Below are positions 8,730 through 56,400 of a stretch of DNA of 64,000 nt, one piece after another; position 1 is the first letter of the stretch, and each line of letters starts with the position of its first letter. Origin of the DNA: Nitratifractor salsuginis DSM 16511 (lineage in GTDB: Bacteria; Campylobacterota; Campylobacteria; Campylobacterales; Sulfurovaceae); contig NC_014935.1 of the NCBI RefSeq assembly GCF_000186245.1, forward strand, positions 1,054,001-1,118,000, read 5' to 3'. The position numbers and the translations under genes are program-made. The notes beneath the pieces were generated by a model, which searched no databases, had not been told where the DNA came from, and was given only the letters and a program-made list of their open reading frames with translations.

Positions 8730-11700
8730 ATCATGAAGCAGTCCCTATGGGATTTGAAATTGTCGCCCCGCTTGAGATTGACAAAAGTCTCTGGAATCAT
8801 GAAGCAGTCCCTATGGGATTTGAAATCGCCGCCCCACGTCGCTAGGGCGATAACCCAGGCAATCATGAAGCAGTCCCTATGGGATTTGAAATCAGTCTTG
8901 GGGTGGTAGAGGTCGCAACTATCCCAATCATGAAGCAGTCCCTATGGGATTTGAAATCTTCGTGAGGGAATCCGCTCTGCTCGTGTGCTATGAATCATGA
9001 AGCAGTCCCTATGGGATTTGAAATGCTCTCTTTGAAACGGTCTCCACAAATTCCTTCGATCATGAAGCAGTCCCTATGGGATTTGAAATGTCTCATGCTG
9101 CCACCTTTTTCTTTTTCTGGATCATCATCATGAAGCAGTCCCTATGGGATTTGAAATCACAGAAGAGAAGCTGAAGAGGATCAACCCGCTCATCATGAAG
9201 CAGTCCCTATGGGATTTGAAATTTGAAGCGGTCCGCCTCGATGAGTTGGAGAGTAAACATCATGAAGCAGTCCCTATGGGATTTGAAATCCGTCAGCGGT
9301 TTTGGAGATCTTCCCGTCAGATGTCAATCATGAAGCAGTCCCTATGGGATTTGAAATACGTCGGCCATTGCGCTCTCGAAATCCATCGCTGATCATGAAG
9401 CAGTCCCTATGGGATTTGAAATTCAAGATATGTGGTTTTCAAAACGAAAGCATCCGGATATCATGAAGCAGTCCCTATGGGATTTGAAATGGTTTTTTCA
9501 AATGCTCATGTCCGATAGCTCCAGCCATCATGAAGCAGTCCCTATGGGATTTGAAATCAGTCTTTTTTGATAGCTCAGAATCTTCTGCTATTATCATGAA
9601 GCAGTCCCTATGGGATTTGAAATTCGGGTACCCACAGATCAAGCACGCCCTGGTCAATCATGAAGCAGTCCCTATGGGATTTGAAATCCTGATGGAAAAG
9701 GAGGCGATCGCTTCCAGCCGGGATCATGAAGCAGTCCCTATGGGATTTGAAATCGGACCCACGAGCAGGAGATCGCGACGATGGGCGCGATCATGAAGCA
9801 GTCCCTATGGGATTTGAAATATTTGGGCCTTCTTCCCCTCGTCGATACCCCCAATATCATGAAGCAGTCCCTATGGGATTTGAAATTCCGTCACCCTTGG
9901 CGACGTTCCCGGCACACTTTGATCATGAAGCAGTCCCTATGGGATTTGAAATGATGATGCAGCGCAGGACTTTGCCCACGATCTGAAATCATGAAGCAGT
10001 CCCTATGGGATTTGAAATGCCTCGCCAATGTCGCTGGACTCGATATCAACAATGATCATGAAGCAGTCCCTATGGGATTTGAAATTTTTGAAGAGCCAAA
10101 AGAAGGGGAATATATCGTGAATCATGAAGCAGTCCCTATGGGATTTGAAATCCCAGATCGAGCTTGCAAAAAAGATGGGTGTCAGATCATGAAGCAGTCC
10201 CTATGGGATTTGAAATTCAAAGTGAAGGTGTGCCTGTGAGCTTGATCGAAATCATGAAGCAGTCCCTATGGGATTTGAAATCGCTAAAAGCTTTTCGATG
10301 AGCTCCTCATGCTGCTTATCATGAAGCAGTCCCTATGGGATTTGAAATCAAAAGAGGCCAGCTCTCCCAGACGTTTGCCCACGATCATGAAGCAGTCCCT
10401 ATGGGATTTGAAATGGTTGATAGTACGCCCATGCACGGCAAATTCATACCATCATGAAGCAGTCCCTATGGGATTTGAAATCCGGTCATTTTCCAGAATA
10501 TTCAAAATCCCAATGAAATCTTGAAGCAGTCCCTATGGGATTTGAAATTGTGCTGCGTGCACTGTTTGAGGGGAATGCGGTGGAATCATGAAGCAGTCCC
10601 TATGGGATTTGAAATGCCCACACTCTGATCTCTCTGCCATCCTCCTGCCTGATCATGAAGCAGTCCCTATGAGATTTGAAATATCCAGATGAAAGGGGCG
10701 TTGTATAGCTCCAGGCATCACGAAGCAGTCCCTATGGGATTTGAAATATGACAAACAGATAGATCCCATACCTGCGGGCCAGCATCATGAAGCAGTCCCT
10801 ATGGGATTTGAAATCCACTCCCTGGTAAAGCTCCTTTACCACCCTGGTTATCATGAAGCAGTCCCTATGGGATTTGAAATGCATTACTTACGTCACTATT
10901 CAAGGAAGCAGTATGATCATGAAGCAGTCCCTATGGGATTTGAAATCCGAAGCGATGGCAGAAGCGCGCCTTCTACGAAGGGGATCATGAAGCAGTCCCT
11001 ATGGGATTTGAAATCTCAAAGGATGAGTCAAAGGTATACGATGAACAGCATCATGAAGCAGTCCCTATGGGATTTGAAATCCTCAATTTCTCTTACAATT
11101 TCATCGTAAGGGCGAATCATGAAGCAGTCCCTATGGGATTTGAAATACGCCGCTTGCCGTTCTTTTTCGATCTGCTCCGGAAATCATGAAGCAGTCCCTA
11201 TGGGATTTGAAATTTTTATTGTGCCAAAAGAAAGGCTCTACTGCTGAAATCATGAAGCAGTCCCTATGGGATTTGAAATTGGGAATGTTTTCGTGGACGT
11301 CTCCTCCTCGCGGGTATCATGAAGCAGTCCCTATGGGATTTGAAATTAGCGCATTTCGGCACTACGCGAGTCGATGAGATATCATGAAGCAGTCCCTATG
11401 GGATTTGAAATTCAATTATTTTGTTGACAAGTCCTATTGTAATTTCATCATGAAGCAGTCCCTATGGGATTTGAAATCCGTGTCTATGCCCTTGGGGAGT
11501 GGGGCACACTCAAATCATAAAGCAGTCCCTATGGGATTTGAAATTCTTGACATTCTACAAAAGTAGACGAAGATGTTGTATCATGAAGCAGTCCCTATGG
11601 GATTTGAAATTCCGTTGATAGCTTCATCTCACCTTTGGCCGGTGGCATCATGAAGCAGTCCCTATGGGATTTGAAATTATCGTTGTCGTCTTCATCATAT

Positions 11701-12682
11701 ACAGCATATGAGAATCATGAAGCAGTCCCTATGGGATTTGAAATACACTCCTTTTCTCCCAGGTTGACCTACTAGCCAAGATCATGAAGCAGTCCCTATG
11801 GGATTTGAAATAAGTCGTAGGTATGCCACACCGTATCCCCGACTTTGGATCATGAAGCAGTCCCTATGGGATTTGAAATAATTCCCCTACGGCATCTTCT
11901 GAATACCAAGATATATCATGAAGCAGTCCCTATGGGATTTGAAATGCTTTCCAAACTCTTGGAAGTTTCGCATTTCCAAAGCCATCATGAAGCAGTCCCT
12001 ATGGGATTTGAAATATGGTTCCTGCCGCTGGAACATTATTGGACGCTGCAAATCATGAAGCAGTCCCTATGGGATTTGAAATATTGCATCGAGTGTCTCG
12101 ATCTCCTTTGGAACATCGAATCATGAAGCAGTCCCTATGGGATTTGAAATTTTGGTGCTCTATGGCGGGGCAGGTTCCGGCAAGAATCATGAAGCAGTCC
12201 CTATGGGATTTGAAATATGTCTATAATAGCCTGGGCGTATTCGCTGATCCCCCATCATGAAGCAGTCCCTATGGGATTTGAAATTTGACGGTGCTTTCAT
12301 TGTATTATGAAAAAGTCGAATCATGAAGCAGTCCCTATGGAATTTGAAATTATCCAAATCCGAGAGGCGATATCAAGCCTGATATCATGAAGCAGTCCCT
12401 ATGGGATTTGAAATATTTCTACCTGTTCTATCTGTTTGCATGTGAACAAATATCATGAAGCAGTCCCTATGGGATTTGAAATGAATAGGCGCGGACCTTG
12501 CATTTGCAGTTGTAGCCATCATGAAGCAGTCCCTATGGGATTTGAAATCTTGCCCCCACACAATCAGGGCAGAGGACAAGACTGATTATGAAGCAGTCCC
12601 TATGGGATTTGAAATATATCGAGCCAGTAATTTTCAGGTTCGATAATGGGGATTATGAAGCAGTCCCTATGGGATTTGAAAC
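8730..12682 (+). CRISPR. Type I-B CRISPR array, 60 repeats and 59 spacers
   Basis: I counted 60 copies of a 31-nt repeat that starts ATCATGAAGC, ends GATTTGAAAT and has the central palindrome TCCC-TAT-GGGA. Spacers are mostly 34-38 nt. The first repeat is 8730-8760 and the last 12652-12682. Repeat variants: near 10518 (ATCTTGAAG), 10651 (TATGAGAT), 10718 (ATCACGAAG), 11514 (ATCATAAAG), 12319 (TATGGAATT), 12583 and 12652 (ATTATGAAG; the last also ends AAAC). Decay at the right end gives the orientation. The TTTGAAAT end matches the 8-nt 5' handle of type I-B crRNAs. Open reading frames across it (peptides such as HEAVPMGFEI) are artefacts of the repeat. Confidence 0.98.
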
Positions 12683-32916: not shown

Positions 32917-32955
32917 TAACCGAGTAACCGAGCAATCGAGTAACCGAGTAACCGA
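32917..32955 (+). repeat. TAACCGAG 8-bp tandem repeat, five units
   Basis: Units TAACCGAG, TAACCGAG, CAATCGAG, TAACCGAG, TAACCGA in a row. The same unit recurs at 33444-33480 and in inverted form around 35720-35945. Confidence 0.9.
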
Positions 32956-33024
32956 AAAATGCATAAAATGGTAAAGAAAAAGCAGGAATGGTTAGCCAAA
33001 AACTCAAAAGGAAGGGGAGGGAGC

Positions 33025-33462
33025 ATGACCTATCGTGAATGGTTTGCGGAACATGCCAAGCAGCACCGTAGGATCGTCGAATCTCTGCCGCCGGATATGA
33101 GCCCGGAAGAGATCGTGGACTATTTCAGCTATGAAAATATGAAAGAGAAGCATCCCGACTTCTGTCCCCTCTATGCCCAGGGCGTAAAATGCCACGAGAT
33201 GGAAGAGCTCAACTGCTACCTCTGCGGCTGTCCCTATTTTCGCTTCTGCGACGAGGGGATCGACCGGATCGGAGGAAAGATCCGCTACAGCCTCTGCGCC
33301 ATCGGTTCACGAAAGGCCCGCTATTTCAAGAGTGAAAAAGCCCTCCACCTCGACTGCTCCGAGTGCCTGCTCCCCCACCGAAAATCCTTCATCCTGAAAC
33401 ATTTCGACCGGGATTGGAAAAAGATTATGCGGGAATGTGAGAATAACCGAGCAACCGAGTAA
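33025..33462 (+). CDS. Cysteine-rich protein, possible metal-cluster binder
   Basis: 145 aa. Nine or so cysteines, including FCPLYAQGVKCHE, NCYLCGCPYFRFC, YSLCAIG and LDCSECLLPH, suggest a metal or iron-sulfur site. Start ATG 33025 is chosen for the strong AAGGGGAGGG site; an upstream ATG at 32959 lies in the tandem repeats. The final residues ENNRATE and the stop codon are encoded by the 8-bp repeats themselves, so repeat growth has replaced the native C-terminus. Function unknown. Confidence 0.75.
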   Translation: MTYREWFAEHAKQHRRIVESLPPDMSPEEIVDYFSYENMKEKHPDFCPLYAQGVKCHEMEELNCYLCGCPYFRFCDEGIDRIGGKIRYSLCAIGSRKARYFKSEKALHLDCSECLLPHRKSFILKHFDRDWKKIMRECENNRATE

Positions 33463-33480
33463 CCGAGTAATGAGTAACCG
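33444..33480 (+). repeat. TAACCGAG 8-bp tandem repeat at the end of the cysteine-rich gene
   Basis: TAACCGAG, CAACCGAG, TAACCGAG, then TAATGAG and TAACCG. The second TAA is the stop codon of the preceding gene. Confidence 0.85.
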
Positions 33481-33489
33481 AATTCCTCT

Positions 33490-33575
33490 GGTTCCCACGT
33501 TTTACGTGGGAATCCATACTTCATTCTGTGCTCAGGATAAATATACACTCCCACGTGTAACGTGGGAGCGAGAAG
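33490..33575 (-). repeat. REPIN-like double-hairpin element, copy A
   Basis: Two 9-bp hairpins: TTCCCACGT-TTT-ACGTGGGAA (33492-33512) and CTCCCACGT-GTA-ACGTGGGAG (33548-33568), separated by 35 bp. The same element is present in inverted orientation at 35519-35605. Confidence 0.85.
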
Positions 33576-33636
33576 AACAAGGAAAGGATAAATCTTAACA
33601 CGTAACACGTAACACTTAGCACTGAACGCTCAACGC

Positions 33637-34566
33637 TCAACTCTCTCCCAAAAGATTCAACGCATCCCGATAGATCGGTTCGTCGATGAAGCCATAGCGT
33701 TCGTGCATGAAGCCGTGTATTCCTTTGGCGCTGGCGGCTTCGAAGGCCTCTTTGATCTCCCGTGCCCTGTGCAGAGCCTCTTCGTCGGGGCCGAAGATCT
33801 CGTTGGCGATCGCGACCTGGGCCGGGCCCATACAGGCTTTGGCTTCGAAACCCATCTCCCGCTCCCGTTCGCACCAGCGGCGGAAGCCCTCCAAATCTTT
33901 GTAATCCTGATACATAAAAGAGACCGGAAGCAAACCGGCGATCCGTGCATCGACCAGGAAACGGGTGAGGATCGCCTCGGCGGTAGGATTGCCCGGGCCT
34001 TGGGTGACGAGGCGCTGAGGAAGCCCCAGATCCGCCAGCAGATCCAAAATCCCCAGGTTGGCGGTGCTCAGGCGGGGATCGATCCCGCCCCAATGGGCCA
34101 GATCCCGAAAAGCCTCTTTGGTCTCCAGAGAAATATGTAGCTCACGGTCTTCCGGCAGCAGGGCCAGGGCCGTTTCAATCTCCGCTTTGCTTCGGACCTT
34201 GGGCAGGCGGATGGCATCGATGGCAAAATCGTTGAGAAATCGGATCTCTGCTTCTCCTCCAAGCTCCAGGGGATTGACCCGCACGACGATGCAGGAGTTT
34301 GAGCGCTCGAGATGGGAGAGGAAGAGGGCGATATTGACCAGAGCCTCCTTTTTACGGGAAGGGGCGATGGCATCTTCGAGATTGAGGGTCACCCAGTCTG
34401 CCTCCAGCTCATCCAGGCGGTTCATATGCTTTAGCATCAATGGATTGAGTATCATATTGGAGCGGTGGCGGCGCCGGGGGCAGAGGGCTTTGCCGCCACT
34501 GCCGATACACGTTTGCCTCTCCACGGGACTCAGGGATTCGATGGCGGATATATTTTCAAATATCAA
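33637..34566 (-). CDS. CitE-like HpcH/HpaI-family lyase
   Basis: 309 aa TIM-barrel of the citrate lyase beta/malyl-CoA lyase superfamily. Seen: DWVTLNLEDAIAPSRK (metal Asp region), VVRVNPLE, IRLPKVRSK, ISLETKEAF and KACMGPAQVAIANEIF. TTG at 34566 is the likely start (AAGGAG five bases upstream). The N-terminal 37 residues before MILNPLMLKH are unusual for the family. Substrate not clear: free-standing CitE proteins cleave acyl-CoA thioesters such as citramalyl-CoA. Its 3' end is duplicated in inverted orientation at 35609-35676. Confidence 0.85.
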   Translation of the reverse strand: MIFENISAIESLSPVERQTCIGSGGKALCPRRRHRSNMILNPLMLKHMNRLDELEADWVTLNLEDAIAPSRKKEALVNIALFLSHLERSNSCIVVRVNPLELGGEAEIRFLNDFAIDAIRLPKVRSKAEIETALALLPEDRELHISLETKEAFRDLAHWGGIDPRLSTANLGILDLLADLGLPQRLVTQGPGNPTAEAILTRFLVDARIAGLLPVSFMYQDYKDLEGFRRWCEREREMGFEAKACMGPAQVAIANEIFGPDEEALHRAREIKEAFEAASAKGIHGFMHERYGFIDEPIYRDALNLLGES

Positions 34567-34636
34567 AAGGGCTCCTTAGCTAGAGTTCATCAAAATGGAT
34601 TATAGCGAGCTTCCCCGTCTATGCTACAATCCCGGC

Positions 34637-35473
34637 ATGAAAGCCTTTAACCCCGAAGCGAGATTCATCAGCAAAATCAAAAGCCTCTATATCGGAGATG
34701 ACGCCGCCCTGGTCAATGGGCTGATCTACAGCGCCGATGCCTTTTGCGAGGGGACCCATTTTCTACGGGAGTGGATGAGCCCCGCCCAGGTGGGTCGCAA
34801 GGCGATGCTGGTCAATCTCTCCGATGCCGTGGCGATGAACGCCGATCCCCTCTATGCCCTGGTGACGGTGATGCTCCCCCGGGACTTCGGCCCCGGGCAG
34901 ATCGATGAGTTGGCCGGAGCTTTGAAGCAGACAGCCGCGGAGTTTGGCTGCGAAATCATCGGCGGGGATACCGTGGCGGGGGAGGAGCTCCATCTCTCCG
35001 TCACCCTGATCTCCTGCAGCGATGCCCCCCTGCTGCGCGGCGGGATTCAGCCCGGAGACCTGCTGGCCTATACCGGCACCCTCGGGGAGTCGAAACGGAA
35101 TCTGGAAGCCCTGATGCGAGGAGAAAACATCCCGTCCGACTCCCGCTTCTACGAGCCGGTGCTGCGCCGGGATTTCGTGCGCAAATGCCGCAAATATCTG
35201 CGCGCCGGAATGGACCTCTCCGACGGCCTCTACTGCGATACCGACAAACTACTCGACTACAACGGTTTGGGAATGGAGCTGCTCCAGGAGATCCCCGAAG
35301 CGATCGGCAGCAGCGGCGAAGAGTACGAAATGCTCGTCGCCGTCGCCCCGGAAAATCTCGAAGCCCTCCGGGAGTGCGCACGAAAAGAGGGAGTGCCTCT
35401 GAATGTTTTTGCCCGCGTGGAGGAGAATGACCGACGTTTCCCCTGCCGGGATCATCATTTAATTGAGAGTTGA
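34637..35473 (+). CDS. thiL: Thiamine-monophosphate kinase
   Basis: 278 aa. AIR-synthase fold with YIGDDAALV, the metal-binding LSDAVAMNADPLYALV, IIGGDTVAG and AGMDLSDGLYCDTDKLL. Phosphorylates thiamine monophosphate to the diphosphate cofactor. I prefer ATG at 34637, which gives the usual short distance to IGDD. A GCTACAAT box ends 7 bases before it, so the mRNA may be leaderless. ATG at 34595 would add 14 residues. The 3' end is followed by repeat-rich DNA. Confidence 0.9.
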   Translation: MKAFNPEARFISKIKSLYIGDDAALVNGLIYSADAFCEGTHFLREWMSPAQVGRKAMLVNLSDAVAMNADPLYALVTVMLPRDFGPGQIDELAGALKQTAAEFGCEIIGGDTVAGEELHLSVTLISCSDAPLLRGGIQPGDLLAYTGTLGESKRNLEALMRGENIPSDSRFYEPVLRRDFVRKCRKYLRAGMDLSDGLYCDTDKLLDYNGLGMELLQEIPEAIGSSGEEYEMLVAVAPENLEALRECARKEGVPLNVFARVEENDRRFPCRDHHLIES

Positions 35474-35518
35474 GAGCTGAAGGGGGGGCCGTTAGTCGTT
35501 GGTCGTTGGATTTTTTCT

Positions 35519-35605
35519 TCTCGCTCCCACGTTGCACGTGGGAGTGTATACCTGCCCTGACGCATAGAGTGAAGTATGGATTCCCACGTAAAACGTGGGA
35601 ACCAG
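35519..35605 (+). repeat. REPIN-like double-hairpin element, copy B
   Basis: CTCCCACGT-TGC-ACGTGGGAG (35524-35544) and TTCCCACGT-AAA-ACGTGGGAA (35581-35601), 36 bp apart; inverted relative to copy A. Small open frames across it are not genes. Confidence 0.85.
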
Positions 35606-35608
35606 AGC

Positions 35609-35676
35609 AAAAACACTACGGCTTCATCGACGAACCGATCTACTGGGATACGTTGAATCTTTTAGGAGAGAGTTGA
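35609..35676 (+). pseudogene. Inverted duplicate of the citE-like gene 3' end
   Basis: Encodes HYGFIDEPIYWDTLNLLGES and a stop, a near copy of the last 20 residues of the lyase at 33637 (RYGFIDEPIYRDALNLLGES). The DNA match continues past the stop (GAGAGTTGAG, TACGTG, TAAGATT). It has no upstream coding part, so it is a fragment. Confidence 0.85.
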
Positions 35677-35729
35677 GAGTTGAGTGCTACATGTTACGTG
35701 CTAAGATTCTTCCCTTTCTTCGGTTGCTC

Positions 35730-35945
35730 GGTTATTCGGTTACTCATTACTCGGTTATTCTGTTCCTCATTCCTCACTCCTCATTAGTGAAGGCTCCGCC
35801 TTCATCGGTTACTCGGTTATTCCGTTACTCATTACTCGGTTATTCTGTTCCTCATTCCTCACTCCTCATTAGTGAAGGCTCCGCCTTCATCGGTTACTCG
35901 GTTATTCCGTTACTCATTACTCAGTTACTAGTTACTCATTATTCA
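35730..35945 (+). repeat. 85-bp tandem repeat, about 2.5 copies
   Basis: Copies begin at 35730, 35815 and 35900 (exact 85-bp period). Each contains inverted TAACCGAG units plus a GAAGGCTCCGCCTTC palindrome. The third copy runs into the trpB 3' end, which uses it for the last codons and stop. Confidence 0.9.
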
Positions 35946-37164
35946 GTTTTTCCGGCGACCACTCCCGCACACCGAAGGTCTCCACCACATAGTCGATGTC
36001 TTTGTCGCCCCGGCCTGAGAGGTTGACCAGGATGGCGTCGTTGGGGTGTTTGCGGGCCAGCTTCATCGCGTAGGCGATGGCGTGCGCGCTCTCCAGGGCG
36101 GGGATGATCCCCTCGTATTGGCTGATGGCGTAGAAGGCGTCGATGGTCTCCTCGTCGGTGGCTCCGGCCACGTGGACCCGACCGATGCCGTGGAGATAGG
36201 CCTGCTCCGGGCCCACCCCCGGATAATCGAGCCCGCTGGCGACAGAATGAACGGGGGCGGGCTCTCCCTTCTCATCCTGGAGCAGGATCGATTTGAATCC
36301 GTGCAGCACTCCGGCTTTGCCGTATTCCAGCGTAGCGGCGTGGTCTCCCAGGCGGGTGCTCTTGCCCAGAGGCTCCACGGCGTAGAGCTCTACCGGATCG
36401 TCGATGAATCCGCTGAAGATCCCCATCGCGTTGGAGCCTCCCCCCACGCAGGCCACCACGTGATCGGGCAGCTCCCCGTCGGTCATCTCCATATACTGCT
36501 CCCGCGCTTCGATCCCGACTACGCTCTGAAAATCCCGCACCATCAGGGGGAAGGGGTGGGGGCCGACGACCGAACCGATGGCGTAGAGGGCGCTATCGAG
36601 CTGCTTGACATAGGATTCGAAGGCCGAATCCACCGCCTCTTTGAGGGTGCGCAGCCCGTGGGTAGCAGGCACCACCTGAGCACCTAGGATCTGCATACGC
36701 ACCACGTTGGGGTGCTCTTTGGCGATGTCCACCTCTCCCATATGAATCTCACACTCCAGGCCGAAATAGGCGGCCGCCGTCGCCAGGGCGACCCCGTGCT
36801 GCCCCGCACCCGTTTCGGCGATGAGCTTGGTCTTGCCCATATATTTGGCCAGGAGGGCTTCGGCCATACAGTGGTTGAGCTTGTGGGCGCCGGTGTGGTT
36901 GAGATCTTCCCGTTTGAAGTAGAGCTGGGCGCCTCCCACGGCGTCACTGAGCCGTTTGGCGTGATAGACCGGAGTGGGGCGCCCCTGGTAGTGCTTGCGG
37001 ATGCGGCGCAGTTCGCTGAGAAAATCGTGGGACTTTCTCAATTTCATATAGGCTTCGGTGATGCGGTCGAACTCTTCCACGAGCTGCGGCGGGAGAAAGG
37101 ATCCGCCGTATTCTCCAAAATATCCCTCTTCATCGGGCTGGTGTTTGAGATACTGGTGTTTCAT
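35932..37164 (-). CDS. trpB: Tryptophan synthase beta chain
   Basis: 410 aa. PLP lysine in [17 protein letters not shown] loop, phosphate loop VGGGSNAMG, and the C-terminal LSGRGDKD. Makes L-tryptophan from indole and serine. ATG 37164 has AAAGGAGGAA just upstream; an earlier frame extension to 37278 is not supported. No trpA nearby. The last residues (EKLNNE) and stop lie in tandem-repeat DNA. Follows the tiny lipoprotein gene by 58 bp on the same strand. Confidence 0.97.
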
Positions 37165-41988: not shown

Positions 41989-42413
41989 TATTTACCGGGC
42001 TCTCGATGCTTTGGGTATCAGGGGCTATCATATTCAGTAAAATATATATTGGTTAACATAATATATATTCTCTGTAACAAAATCACAGGGCATTCCGGAC
42101 TGACCCAACCTGCCTGAAAAGCCGCTACCAACTTCAAAATTTTCACTCTTGAAATCGAATCGATAAATATCTTCCAAGATTAGGGAAACTAAAGACTTCC
42201 AATTTCACATAAAATATAGTTCCACCAAAAATCCCTCTTGATTATAGAGGCGCATTTCTCGCGATCAAGCAAAACTCTTTATAACGACGAGCATGTCTCT
42301 TCTCGACGACCATATGCAGATCAGTCACTTCTGTCACCTCAGAACATCTCGCCCAAAATAATAGACAAAGCACTTCGTAAGCGAATAGATGGAAACACTA
42401 TGAAGCAGCAGGA
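41989..42413. other. Non-coding stretch before tetR operators
   Basis: 425 bp without a convincing gene. It contains two AATATATATT boxes (42041-42050 and 42060-42069) around GGTTAACAT. A 73-codon frame starting near 42238 has no ribosome binding site and runs into the operators, so I do not call it. Confidence 0.5.
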
Positions 42414-42563
42414 TGAACAAATGTTCATAGATTGCAGCAGGTCTTCTAAAGTAAAGTGAACACTTGTTCACATAAAAAGATGATGTGATATCCCCAATAT
42501 GAACAGTTGTTCACCAGGATATCAGACTAACACATTGACTTATGAACATTTGTTCACTATAAT
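42414..42563 (+). promoter_or_regulatory. tetR promoter with four palindromic operators at exact 43-bp spacing
   Basis: Palindromes TGAACA-NN-TGTTCA start at 42414, 42457, 42500 and 42543. The last one lies between a -35 TTGACT (42535-42540) and a -10 TATAAT (42558-42563), spacer 17 bp. All four have perfect arms; only the central two bases differ (AA, CT, GT, TT). 43 bp is about four helical turns, so the sites face the same side of DNA. Likely binding sites of the TetR protein encoded next. Confidence 0.88.
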
Positions 42564-42591: not shown

Positions 42592-43215
42592 ATGGACAAA
42601 GAAAAGGTCTCAACGAAGCAACGAATACTCGAAAGCGCTCTAAAGCTCTTTTCGACGAAAGGTTACAAAGCCACGACAATGCGGGATATTGCCGCCGAGG
42701 TCGGCGTGAGGCAGGGAGCGATCTATAACCACTTCAAAAGCAAAGAAACCATCCTGGAAAGCCTCATAGCGGACTTGACCGACTCCGCCCTGGTACATCT
42801 GTTCGACAAAGATCTCGACCCGAAAAAGGGAAAGCAACTCCTGGCCAAAATCGCCACCACTTTCAAACTCATCAGTTTCGATCCAAGGAATGAAGCCCTC
42901 TTCCGTCTGATGATGCAGGAGCTCTTTCGTAATGAAAAGGTGCGGGAACTTTATCACGAACACTTCTATCAGCAGAATGTCAAACGGCTCTCGACCTATC
43001 TTTTCCAAATGATGCAGGAGGAGTTGATCCGCTCTTCGGACCCCCTGCTCCTGGCCAACGAATTCTTCGCTCCGCTTTTCTTTTATCAGATGCAGGTAGT
43101 ACTCCTGAAACTCGACGGCAAATCCACATCCGCCGCGGTCACGATGTTTGAAAAACATGTGGATCTATTCTGGGATTCGGTGAAGCTCAGCAATCACACA
43201 CCCACCCTCTTCTAG
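42592..43215 (+). CDS. TetR-family transcriptional regulator
   Basis: 207 aa. The helix-turn-helix is plain: KQRILESALKLFSTKGYKATTMRDIAAEVG, with GAIYNHFKSKETIL as the recognition end. The C-terminal ligand domain is not assignable. ATG 42592 follows GAGGTG and fits the family start; earlier ATG codons lie within the operators. It is expected to repress itself through the four palindromes. The next thing downstream is an insertion sequence, so any co-transcribed target gene may have been displaced. Confidence 0.92.
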   Translation: MDKEKVSTKQRILESALKLFSTKGYKATTMRDIAAEVGVRQGAIYNHFKSKETILESLIADLTDSALVHLFDKDLDPKKGKQLLAKIATTFKLISFDPRNEALFRLMMQELFRNEKVRELYHEHFYQQNVKRLSTYLFQMMQEELIRSSDPLLLANEFFAPLFFYQMQVVLLKLDGKSTSAAVTMFEKHVDLFWDSVKLSNHTPTLF

Positions 43216-43248: not shown

Positions 43249-44294
43249 GACTTAAAGCGGGTTTTCGGGTTGCTATTTCATTGCTTTTTCTAGGAAATCA
43301 GTGATGAGTTTCTTCTTCATAGAGTCTCCAATACCCCGATGGATTTTCAATAAAGCTTTCATAGGAGAGAAGAGTCCACCATCCAAAGTATTGGTTGTAT
43401 TGGCTATGCCAAGATGAGGATGGGTTTTATACGTGAAGAGATAAGGAAGATTGCGTTCAAGACTTCGATAGGCCGAGCGGAGTCGATCATGGGTGTAATG
43501 CCATCCACGTGGAGAATCGTCAGGGGTTTTCTCTTCATAGAAATCTTTGTGCCGTTGGAGCCAGGCTTCCAGCATATAGCGGAAACGGCAGGGGGTTGTC
43601 TGTCCAAGATAGGAAGCGATACGCTTGAGATCCCTAGAGGCTTGATAGGTAGGTCTGCGCGTCAGATAACGAGTGAGAATGGCTTGTTGATGGAAATGGC
43701 ACATTTGAACCGGAAGGTCGGCAAAGAGCCCAAACAATCCCCGTCGGCCATCGACGGTGACGGCCTGGATGATAAAGCCCTGATCCAGAAGGCTTTGCCG
43801 AAGCATCGCATATTCATTGAGCGTCTCAGTCTGAATGAAACGATACGCTACCAGTTGGCCACTCAGGATATCTTTAGCTACAAGAACACCAAAGCCCTCT
43901 CCCCGTTTTCCGAAGAATGTCGCATCGATAACCAAAGTGACCGGTCTGGGATGTGGTGAAGTCTTTGGCGGTTCATAGCTATGAATCTGACGTTGAATCC
44001 ACTCCCGATCCTTATGATAGGTCCGGGATAAGGCTTTGAGGGTTTGGTGCTCATAGAAGTAGGCAGTAAAGAGTCGTTTTCTGAGGCGGGAGGGACGTCT
44101 ACGAGAAGAGAAGCTCTGCCGGCAACTTTGGCAAAAATAGCGCTGAATTCCTGCTCTTTTACCATTCTTTTTCGTCGCTTTTGAACCACAGATAGGGCAC
44201 TTTTTTACAAGCCATCTGTAAAAAAGTCCTTTTTAGGCACCATATTACCGAAGGTTTAAAGGATTTTTAGCAACCCGAAAAACCGCTTTAGCTC
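43249..44294 (-). mobile_element. IS256-family (zinc-ribbon variant) insertion sequence with 8-bp target duplication
   Basis: 1046 bp. Terminal inverted repeats of about 27 bp with three mismatches: left end at 43249-43275, right end at 44268-44294, both containing TAAAGCGG and TTTTCGGGTTGCTA. An 8-bp direct repeat AAATAATA flanks it at 43241-43248 and 44295-44302, the usual length for this family. It holds one transposase gene on the minus strand. Confidence 0.9.
43273..44215 (-). pseudogene. Transposase with a one-base frameshift after the start codon
   Basis: The body reads CPICGSKATKKNGKRAG, then YFCQSCRQSF (zinc ribbon), VTLVIDATFFGKR, AVTVDGRRGLFG, CHFHQQA and TNTLDGGLFSPMK, the DDE regions of the Mutator-type transposase. 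The only start found, ATG at 44215 (MACKK), is in another frame: a run of six A (44201-44206 on the plus strand as T) is one base too long. With five A the frame reads MACKKCPICGS. This may be a dead copy, transcriptional slippage, or a read error. Confidence 0.75.
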
Positions 44295-55861: not shown

Positions 55862-56400
55862 TAGCCGGTGGCTTCAGATTACGGCTGAAAGCCGGTCATT
55901 CAGCCTGAAGGCCGTCGGTTGATCAGACAACTCGGAACTCATCATCAAGCTCTGGTGGTTGTTGGTTCTTGATATATTCCATCCAGACTTCATCGGTCAC
56001 ATTTCCACTCGTTGCAACCCAGTATCCTCTCGCCCACAAATGCTGCCCCCAATACCGCTTCTTCAGCATCCGAAATTCACTCATCAATTTATGCGAACTC
56101 TTCCCTTTCAAATATTGCACTGCCTTTGATACGGACATATTTGGCGGTATCCCTATCAACAAATGTACATGATCCCGATTGATGGATCCTGCATAAATCA
56201 CCATCTCCCGACTCATCGCAATCTCACGTAACAAATCTCGGCATCGGTACCCCACATCCCCTTTTAAGACGGGATAACGGTATTTTGTCGTCCACACGAG
56301 ATGGTATTTACAGTCCCATACTGTATGCCCACCATTTCTATACTCTTGCATCTTTCAAGCATACCATATCCCGGCCGCCTAAAGGCGTGGGGTTTACGGA
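55845..56400 (-). mobile_element. IS200-type element
   Basis: Bounded on the left by the hairpin CCACCGGCT-AAT-AGCCGGTGG (55851-55871) and on the right by short hairpin sequences (GCCTAAAGGC, GTGGGGTTTACGG). Contains one Y1 transposase and no inverted repeats or target duplication, as expected. Exact ends are not certain. Confidence 0.75.
55923..56351 (-). CDS. tnpA: IS200/IS605 TnpA Y1 transposase
   Basis: 142 aa. HUH motif in INRDHVHLLIGIPP, a C-terminal Tyr in the VWMEYIKNQ helix, and the family start YHLVWTTKYRYPVLKGDV. Complete length, so it may be active. It moves single-stranded DNA by hairpin recognition. No TnpB accessory gene is present. Confidence 0.93.
   Translation of the reverse strand: MQEYRNGGHTVWDCKYHLVWTTKYRYPVLKGDVGYRCRDLLREIAMSREMVIYAGSINRDHVHLLIGIPPNMSVSKAVQYLKGKSSHKLMSEFRMLKKRYWGQHLWARGYWVATSGNVTDEVWMEYIKNQQPPELDDEFRVV

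Follow-up and report, generated by a model that had tools for sequence, protein, structure and literature searches.

Why should a single TetR-family gene be preceded by four identical palindromes at strictly equal intervals? In the window, by which we mean the whole 64,000-nucleotide stretch of DNA analysed here, TGAACA-NN-TGTTCA occurs in four perfect copies starting at 42414, 42457, 42500 and 42543 with a period of exactly 43 bp; the sequence-only reading of this DNA had reported these four sites, and its coordinates and spacing are both correct. It had also placed the last site inside a promoter spacer, and operator 4 does occupy the 17-bp spacer enclosed by TTGACT and TATAAT upstream of the TetR gene. 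That reading overlooked a conserved linkage of the array to the chromosome dimer resolution site dif, which changes the probable purpose of the array. We propose with moderate confidence that an autoregulated TetR builds a phased complex at dif in the terminus, probably linking chromosome position to division or dimer resolution. The features concerned are as follows.

42051–42078, minus strand: dif of the XerCD type, GTTACAGAGAA-TATATA-TTATGTTAACC (GTTACAGAGAATATATATTATGTTAACC), about 335 bp upstream of operator 1
42414–42427, no strand: operator 1, TGAACAAATGTTCA, kept in orthologous loci
42457–42470, no strand: operator 2, TGAACACTTGTTCA, kept in orthologous loci
42500–42513, no strand: operator 3, TGAACAGTTGTTCA, kept in orthologous loci
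42543–42556, no strand: operator 4, TGAACATTTGTTCA, within the promoter spacer
42535–42563, plus strand: putative tetR promoter as read in the sequence, TTGACT at 42535–42540, 17-bp spacer, TATAAT at 42558–42563
42592–43215, plus strand: gene of a TetR-family regulator of 207 aa (Pfam TetR_N, E=4.9e-19; TetR_C_7, E=2.5e-7)
43250–44290 (approximate), minus strand: IS256-variant insertion sequence (NCBIfam NF048019, E=6.8e-68)

The operator array and the adjacent regulator

With up to two mismatches allowed, the window contains five operator matches, compared with a mean of 1.96 in the shuffled window; beside the perfect copies there is a single match, at 56156, that differs at two positions; by our own arithmetic, a perfect match to the 12-base operator is expected about 0.004 times per 64 kb. 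A genome-wide search for the palindrome, as the earlier reading had proposed, covered one contig of 2,101,285 bp whose first base lies at dnaA, and the rest of this 2.1-Mb genome yielded just one more perfect operator, at C1:21447, together with a singly mismatched one at C1:1458256. The equal 43-bp spacing could hint at recent tandem duplication of a promoter segment, but no tandem repeat was detected in the DNA between the operators and the spacer sequences are unrelated, which argues against such an origin. Moreover, nearly all of the orthologous loci, about 110 across six families of the Campylobacterales, carry 3–4 operators each, which fall within about 210 bp of the tetR start codon in nearly every locus. 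This conservation excludes chance, and sequence coincidence or recent duplication, which it refutes, is scarcely credible as an explanation.

The relatives also bear on the geometry of binding. Among 301 operator spacings, which are not independent of each other but fall into the same classes across 36 distinct spacing patterns, 218 lie at 42.4±0.5 bp, 67 at 32.3±0.6 bp and 15 at 22.0±0.6 bp, corresponding to four, three and two helical turns, with none between the classes and one of 53 bp as the sole exception. Spacers are shortened or mixed by lineage (for example 43-32-42, 33-21-32 and 22-22-22), and the change is always by whole turns. No other evidence for same-face binding is as good as these natural changes, from 43 to 33 and on to 22 bp, and they strongly support the earlier suggestion that the sites share one face of the DNA; the cooperative filament or looping proposed along with it is a more tentative idea. 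The natural 22-, 32- and 42-bp spacings are in effect ready-made spacing mutants for studying TetR cooperation at a distance.

That the operators belong to the adjacent TetR, as the sequence-only reading had assumed, is supported by their conservation upstream of tetR orthologues and by one genome (G003) in which the tetR frame lacks its first 34 residues, part of the HTH included, and the array is absent too, as expected if this TetR is the array-binding protein. The TTGACWWA-operator-NTATAAT layout around operator 4 is kept throughout the window's family, which makes autorepression very likely: TetR bound at operator 4 would block the core promoter. Autoregulation of tetR is well supported by this anatomy.

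The protein itself is a typical member of its family, with a TetR_N HTH, an all-alpha predicted fold (AlphaFold pLDDT 89; top Foldseek matches all TetR) and the customary palindromic operator at its own promoter, conserved as operator 4. Its C-terminal domain is AefR-like and the closest folds by Foldseek are the efflux-type regulators FrrA, MexL and SmeT; the modelled structure is that of an ordinary ligand-type repressor. Orthologues share 55–80% identity within the family and 42–50% in five other families of the order; 95 of 150 sampled same-family genomes match the TetR at E<=1e-10, nearly all of them with true orthologues. No viral relatives were found.

Could autoregulation account for everything? 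TetR would then be a ligand-sensing repressor of its own operon, comprising tetR and a SAM methyltransferase gene in most relatives; the phased array would provide cooperative, steep repression, and the proximity of dif would be inherited linkage only, in a region with symmetrical inversions. The conserved operator 4 in the promoter spacer, the AefR-like domain with its efflux-type fold neighbours and the methyltransferase gene following tetR in 66 of 87 loci all agree with this. However, no methyltransferase gene lies beside tetR in the other families, where the downstream genes differ again. In the window, the IS256-variant lies directly after tetR at the place taken in most relatives by the methyltransferase gene, which was not observed here. 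This insertion sequence has a near-identical copy at C1:14.6–15.5 kb (L005). The locus with the truncated tetR (L124, in G003), from which the array is gone, has no dif nearby and continues with three tandem copies of the methyltransferase gene. Two other regulatory roles were rejected: no pump gene recurs beside tetR in the examined loci, as an efflux-pump regulator would demand, and the upstream genes are not conserved, contrary to CmeR-like divergent control.

The array beside dif

The site at 42051–42078 has the 11-6-11 layout of a XerCD-type dif, comparison with which set the limits of its arms, and it combines a conserved XerD arm (TTATGTTAA) with an intergenic position near the terminus. 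AGAATNTANATTATGTTAAYC is matched with 0 mismatches at C1:1096051–1096071, the dif of the window, and this site agrees with the published dif of Sulfurovum and Sulfurimonas (PMC2731167). The 21-base dif core has just one other match in the genome, at C1:203888.

Upstream sequence of 1 kb or more is available for 96 loci; in 83 of them dif or difH lies 0.1–2.1 kb upstream of tetR, and three further loci (L228, L232 and L233) show dif once longer upstream DNA is read, giving 86 of 96. The linkage holds for both XerCD-type dif and XerH-type difH, and the sites and positions agree with those published for the Campylobacterota (Carnoy and Roten 2009). In the 2,562,277-bp genome G042 the array starts at 1187524, beside the dif at 1186929 published for Sulfurovum NBC37-1 (2,562,277 bp), and in the 1,877,931-bp genome G209 it ends near 1001342, beside the difH at 1001399 published for Nitratiruptor SB155-2 (1,877,931 bp; both from PMC2731167).

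General synteny does not explain this association. Within the family, 38 kinds of gene occur on the far side of dif, and past the methyltransferase gene the downstream neighbours change as well, so the neighbourhood turns over while dif, array and tetR stay together. That 86 of 96 loci, from several families and with two Xer systems, nevertheless keep tetR no more than about 2.1 kb from dif speaks against pure autoregulation with inherited linkage. On the other side stand the ten exceptions. In two of these, G007 and G061, the array is intact at distances of 21 and 32 kb from dif, indicating that autoregulation alone can maintain the array; the other eight are ambiguous or have no recognisable dif. 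Inherited linkage under pure autoregulation is still the chief competitor of our proposal, and we consider it unlikely. Carnoy and Roten (2009) described dif and difH as having no specific genetic environment, with difH often near a recombinase gene, and the available text of their paper (PMC2731167) makes no mention of a linked tetR or operator array; nor was a prior report of a link between a TetR and dif or Xer found in the openly licensed literature. Against that description, families with two different Xer systems have kept tetR and its phased array next to dif.

Alternatively, the array might control recombination at dif, as ArgR and PepA do at plasmid cer sites, or repress a neighbouring xerH. 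Helical phasing is typical of accessory nucleoprotein complexes and fits this proposal, as does the order xerH(-)-difH-array-tetR(+) in XerH lineages, where xerH is the next gene and the gap between difH and the array is about 45–90 bp. In XerCD lineages, however, the gap separating dif from the array is about 30 bp at its shortest and 1.9 kb at its longest and keeps no fixed register, and an adjoining xer gene is usually absent. The variable distance argues against a fixed dif-array complex, and a single register was rejected on this ground. Accessory sites of the cer/psi type hold a constant spacing and register relative to their core site, which was not observed here. We regard an Xer accessory complex as quite improbable.

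The second dif-like core (C1:203888–203908, L230) has a counterpart in genome G038 (L231). Both lie in prophage-like regions with RecT-like, exonuclease-like and replication genes recognised by eye, and the core adjoins repeated TTATTCACA motifs, possibly reflecting an Xer-using phage.

Chromosome position and dispersed operators

The array lies at 0.90–0.99 of the distance from dnaA to the antipode of the origin in 23 of 23 genomes, four of which are numbered from a point other than dnaA; its assignment to the terminus is based on dif and on this distance. A relaxed operator, WKAACANNTGTTMW, is commoner than its reversed control in two sister families (f16 and f18), in which the sites outside the array lie towards the origin. 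This bias was tested afterwards on new genomes, among them G245 (dnaA at 631 kb) and G244, in which 14/14 dispersed sites each fell within 46% and 48%, respectively, of the half-chromosome from dnaA. Over 23 genomes, 130 dispersed sites had a mean normalised distance of 0.30 with 8.5% in the outer third, compared with 0.46 and 28% for a control palindrome (KS against uniform, p=1.5e-12 for dispersed sites and 0.31 for the control). In genomes not used to form the idea, 14/93 sites lay in the terminus half against 47/106 for two controls (Fisher p=7e-6); with one genome per genus, the figures were 5/58 and 35/71.

All 22 dispersed sites checked in G245 and G351 lie inside ORFs, including recA-, gapdh-, nuoH- and bioB-like genes by our own reading, indicating that they are not promoter operators. 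Such origin-proximal intragenic sites in two families, having no promoter role, also count against pure autoregulation. The excess over control palindromes is only 1.4–3.2 fold, implying that some dispersed sites are due to chance, and one control leans mildly towards the origin. The window's family has six dispersed sites in five genomes, without positional bias. TetR appears to bind further single intragenic sites, mostly origin-proximal, in the sister families, as is known for SlmA; in the genome of the window this dispersed component is almost absent and the array beside dif remains.

The perfect operator at C1:21447 (L005, position 7448) is found in the interval separating pcm from a nitrilase-like gene, at 21 kb from dnaA, and recurs in a genome of the same genus (G029; L223, position 3347) as a possible second target. 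A regulon was rejected, because this is one site with no perfect counterpart in the other searched relatives; pcm would be a minor target at best. At another locus of genome G105 (L224, 3700–3760), near a nuclease-like gene, there is a further pair of operators separated by about 33 bp, one of them in a TTGACA/TATAAT promoter; it may be another target or the operator of a paralogue.

A candidate terminus mark

From the conserved layout we infer that TetR, made from the gene just downstream, binds the four operators as dimers on one DNA face at whole-turn spacing, and that these dimers act together in a complex serving the terminus. On the upstream operators, whose helical register is maintained across families, several dimers would be able to form one higher-order complex through contacts or DNA bending. 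By our own estimate, operator centres 43 bp apart are separated by about 145 Angstrom, a gap that ordinary dimers lying side by side would not span, so the DNA would have to be bent or bridged. Placed beside dif in the last-replicated DNA, such a complex could mark the terminus and thereby tie chromosome position to division, to segregation of the terminus or to Xer dimer resolution, acting like SlmA and RefZ, which are division factors of the TetR family.

Autoregulated repressors with several operators, the EthR, SmeT and TtgR class, resemble this one in their ordinary TetR fold and in an operator overlapping the core promoter of their own gene. Operators of that class abut or overlap, whereas here 3–4 separate sites lie 2–4 turns apart, are conserved across families and are tied to dif. 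MatP, of a protein family unrelated to TetR, offers a different parallel. Like MatP at matS, the proposed factor would be a site-specific protein organising the terminus, MatP also contacting the divisome (cited in PMC4726725), but many matS sites are spread over a macrodomain, in contrast to one phased array here.

SlmA is likewise a TetR-family protein, and the dispersed sites of families f16 and f18 are distributed similarly to its sites, but the array itself lies at the terminus, and no natural array of SlmA sites beside dif is known to us. Identity of the window TetR to SlmA is low (28–29%), the SlmA profile NF007015 gives 45.7 bits against a cut-off of 120, and by our own column reading the FtsZ-contact residues F65, R73, L94 and G97 are not conserved and only R101/N102 match, in the window TetR and its near relatives alone. 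In E. coli, the palindromic SlmA sites are frequent around the origin and depleted in the terminus (PMC4117426, PMC4726725). Like the absence of most of these contact residues and the ordinary fold, the placement of the densest sites at the terminus, which a nucleoid-occlusion factor should avoid, counts against a chromosome role. Division is delayed by artificial site arrays in the terminus (PMC4726725), a hint at the possible effect of a natural array at dif. RefZ of B. subtilis, also of the TetR family, has few near-palindromic motifs at conserved positions and acts on septum placement (PMC6657595). It is the best NCBIfam profile match of the window TetR by a small margin (62.2 bits against a cut-off of 180), but its motifs lie two per arm with one near oriC, and no phased array or dif linkage is described for it. 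Orthology to SlmA or RefZ was rejected, since both profile scores are far below their cut-offs.

C. jejuni is without MinC and MinE genes (PMC3228812), and no report of a nucleoid occlusion factor in Campylobacterota was found in the openly licensed literature, so that a candidate link from chromosome to division would fill a gap. It is possible, though doubtful enough to be offered only tentatively, that this TetR is a terminus/division factor across several Campylobacterota families, the array complex at midcell holding division until dif is resolved and segregated. If true, the array would be a built-in counterpart of the terminus arrays by which division has been delayed artificially in E. 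coli and B. subtilis.

Two other repeat regions were observed in the window. A CRISPR-like array occupies 8730–12548, with the repeat ATCATGAAGCAGTCCCTATGGGATTTGAAAT and spacers of about 30–38 bases, and in 32917–35948 short degenerate repeats (TAACCGAG / TCGGTTAC) form several blocks, with one 85-bp tandem unit.
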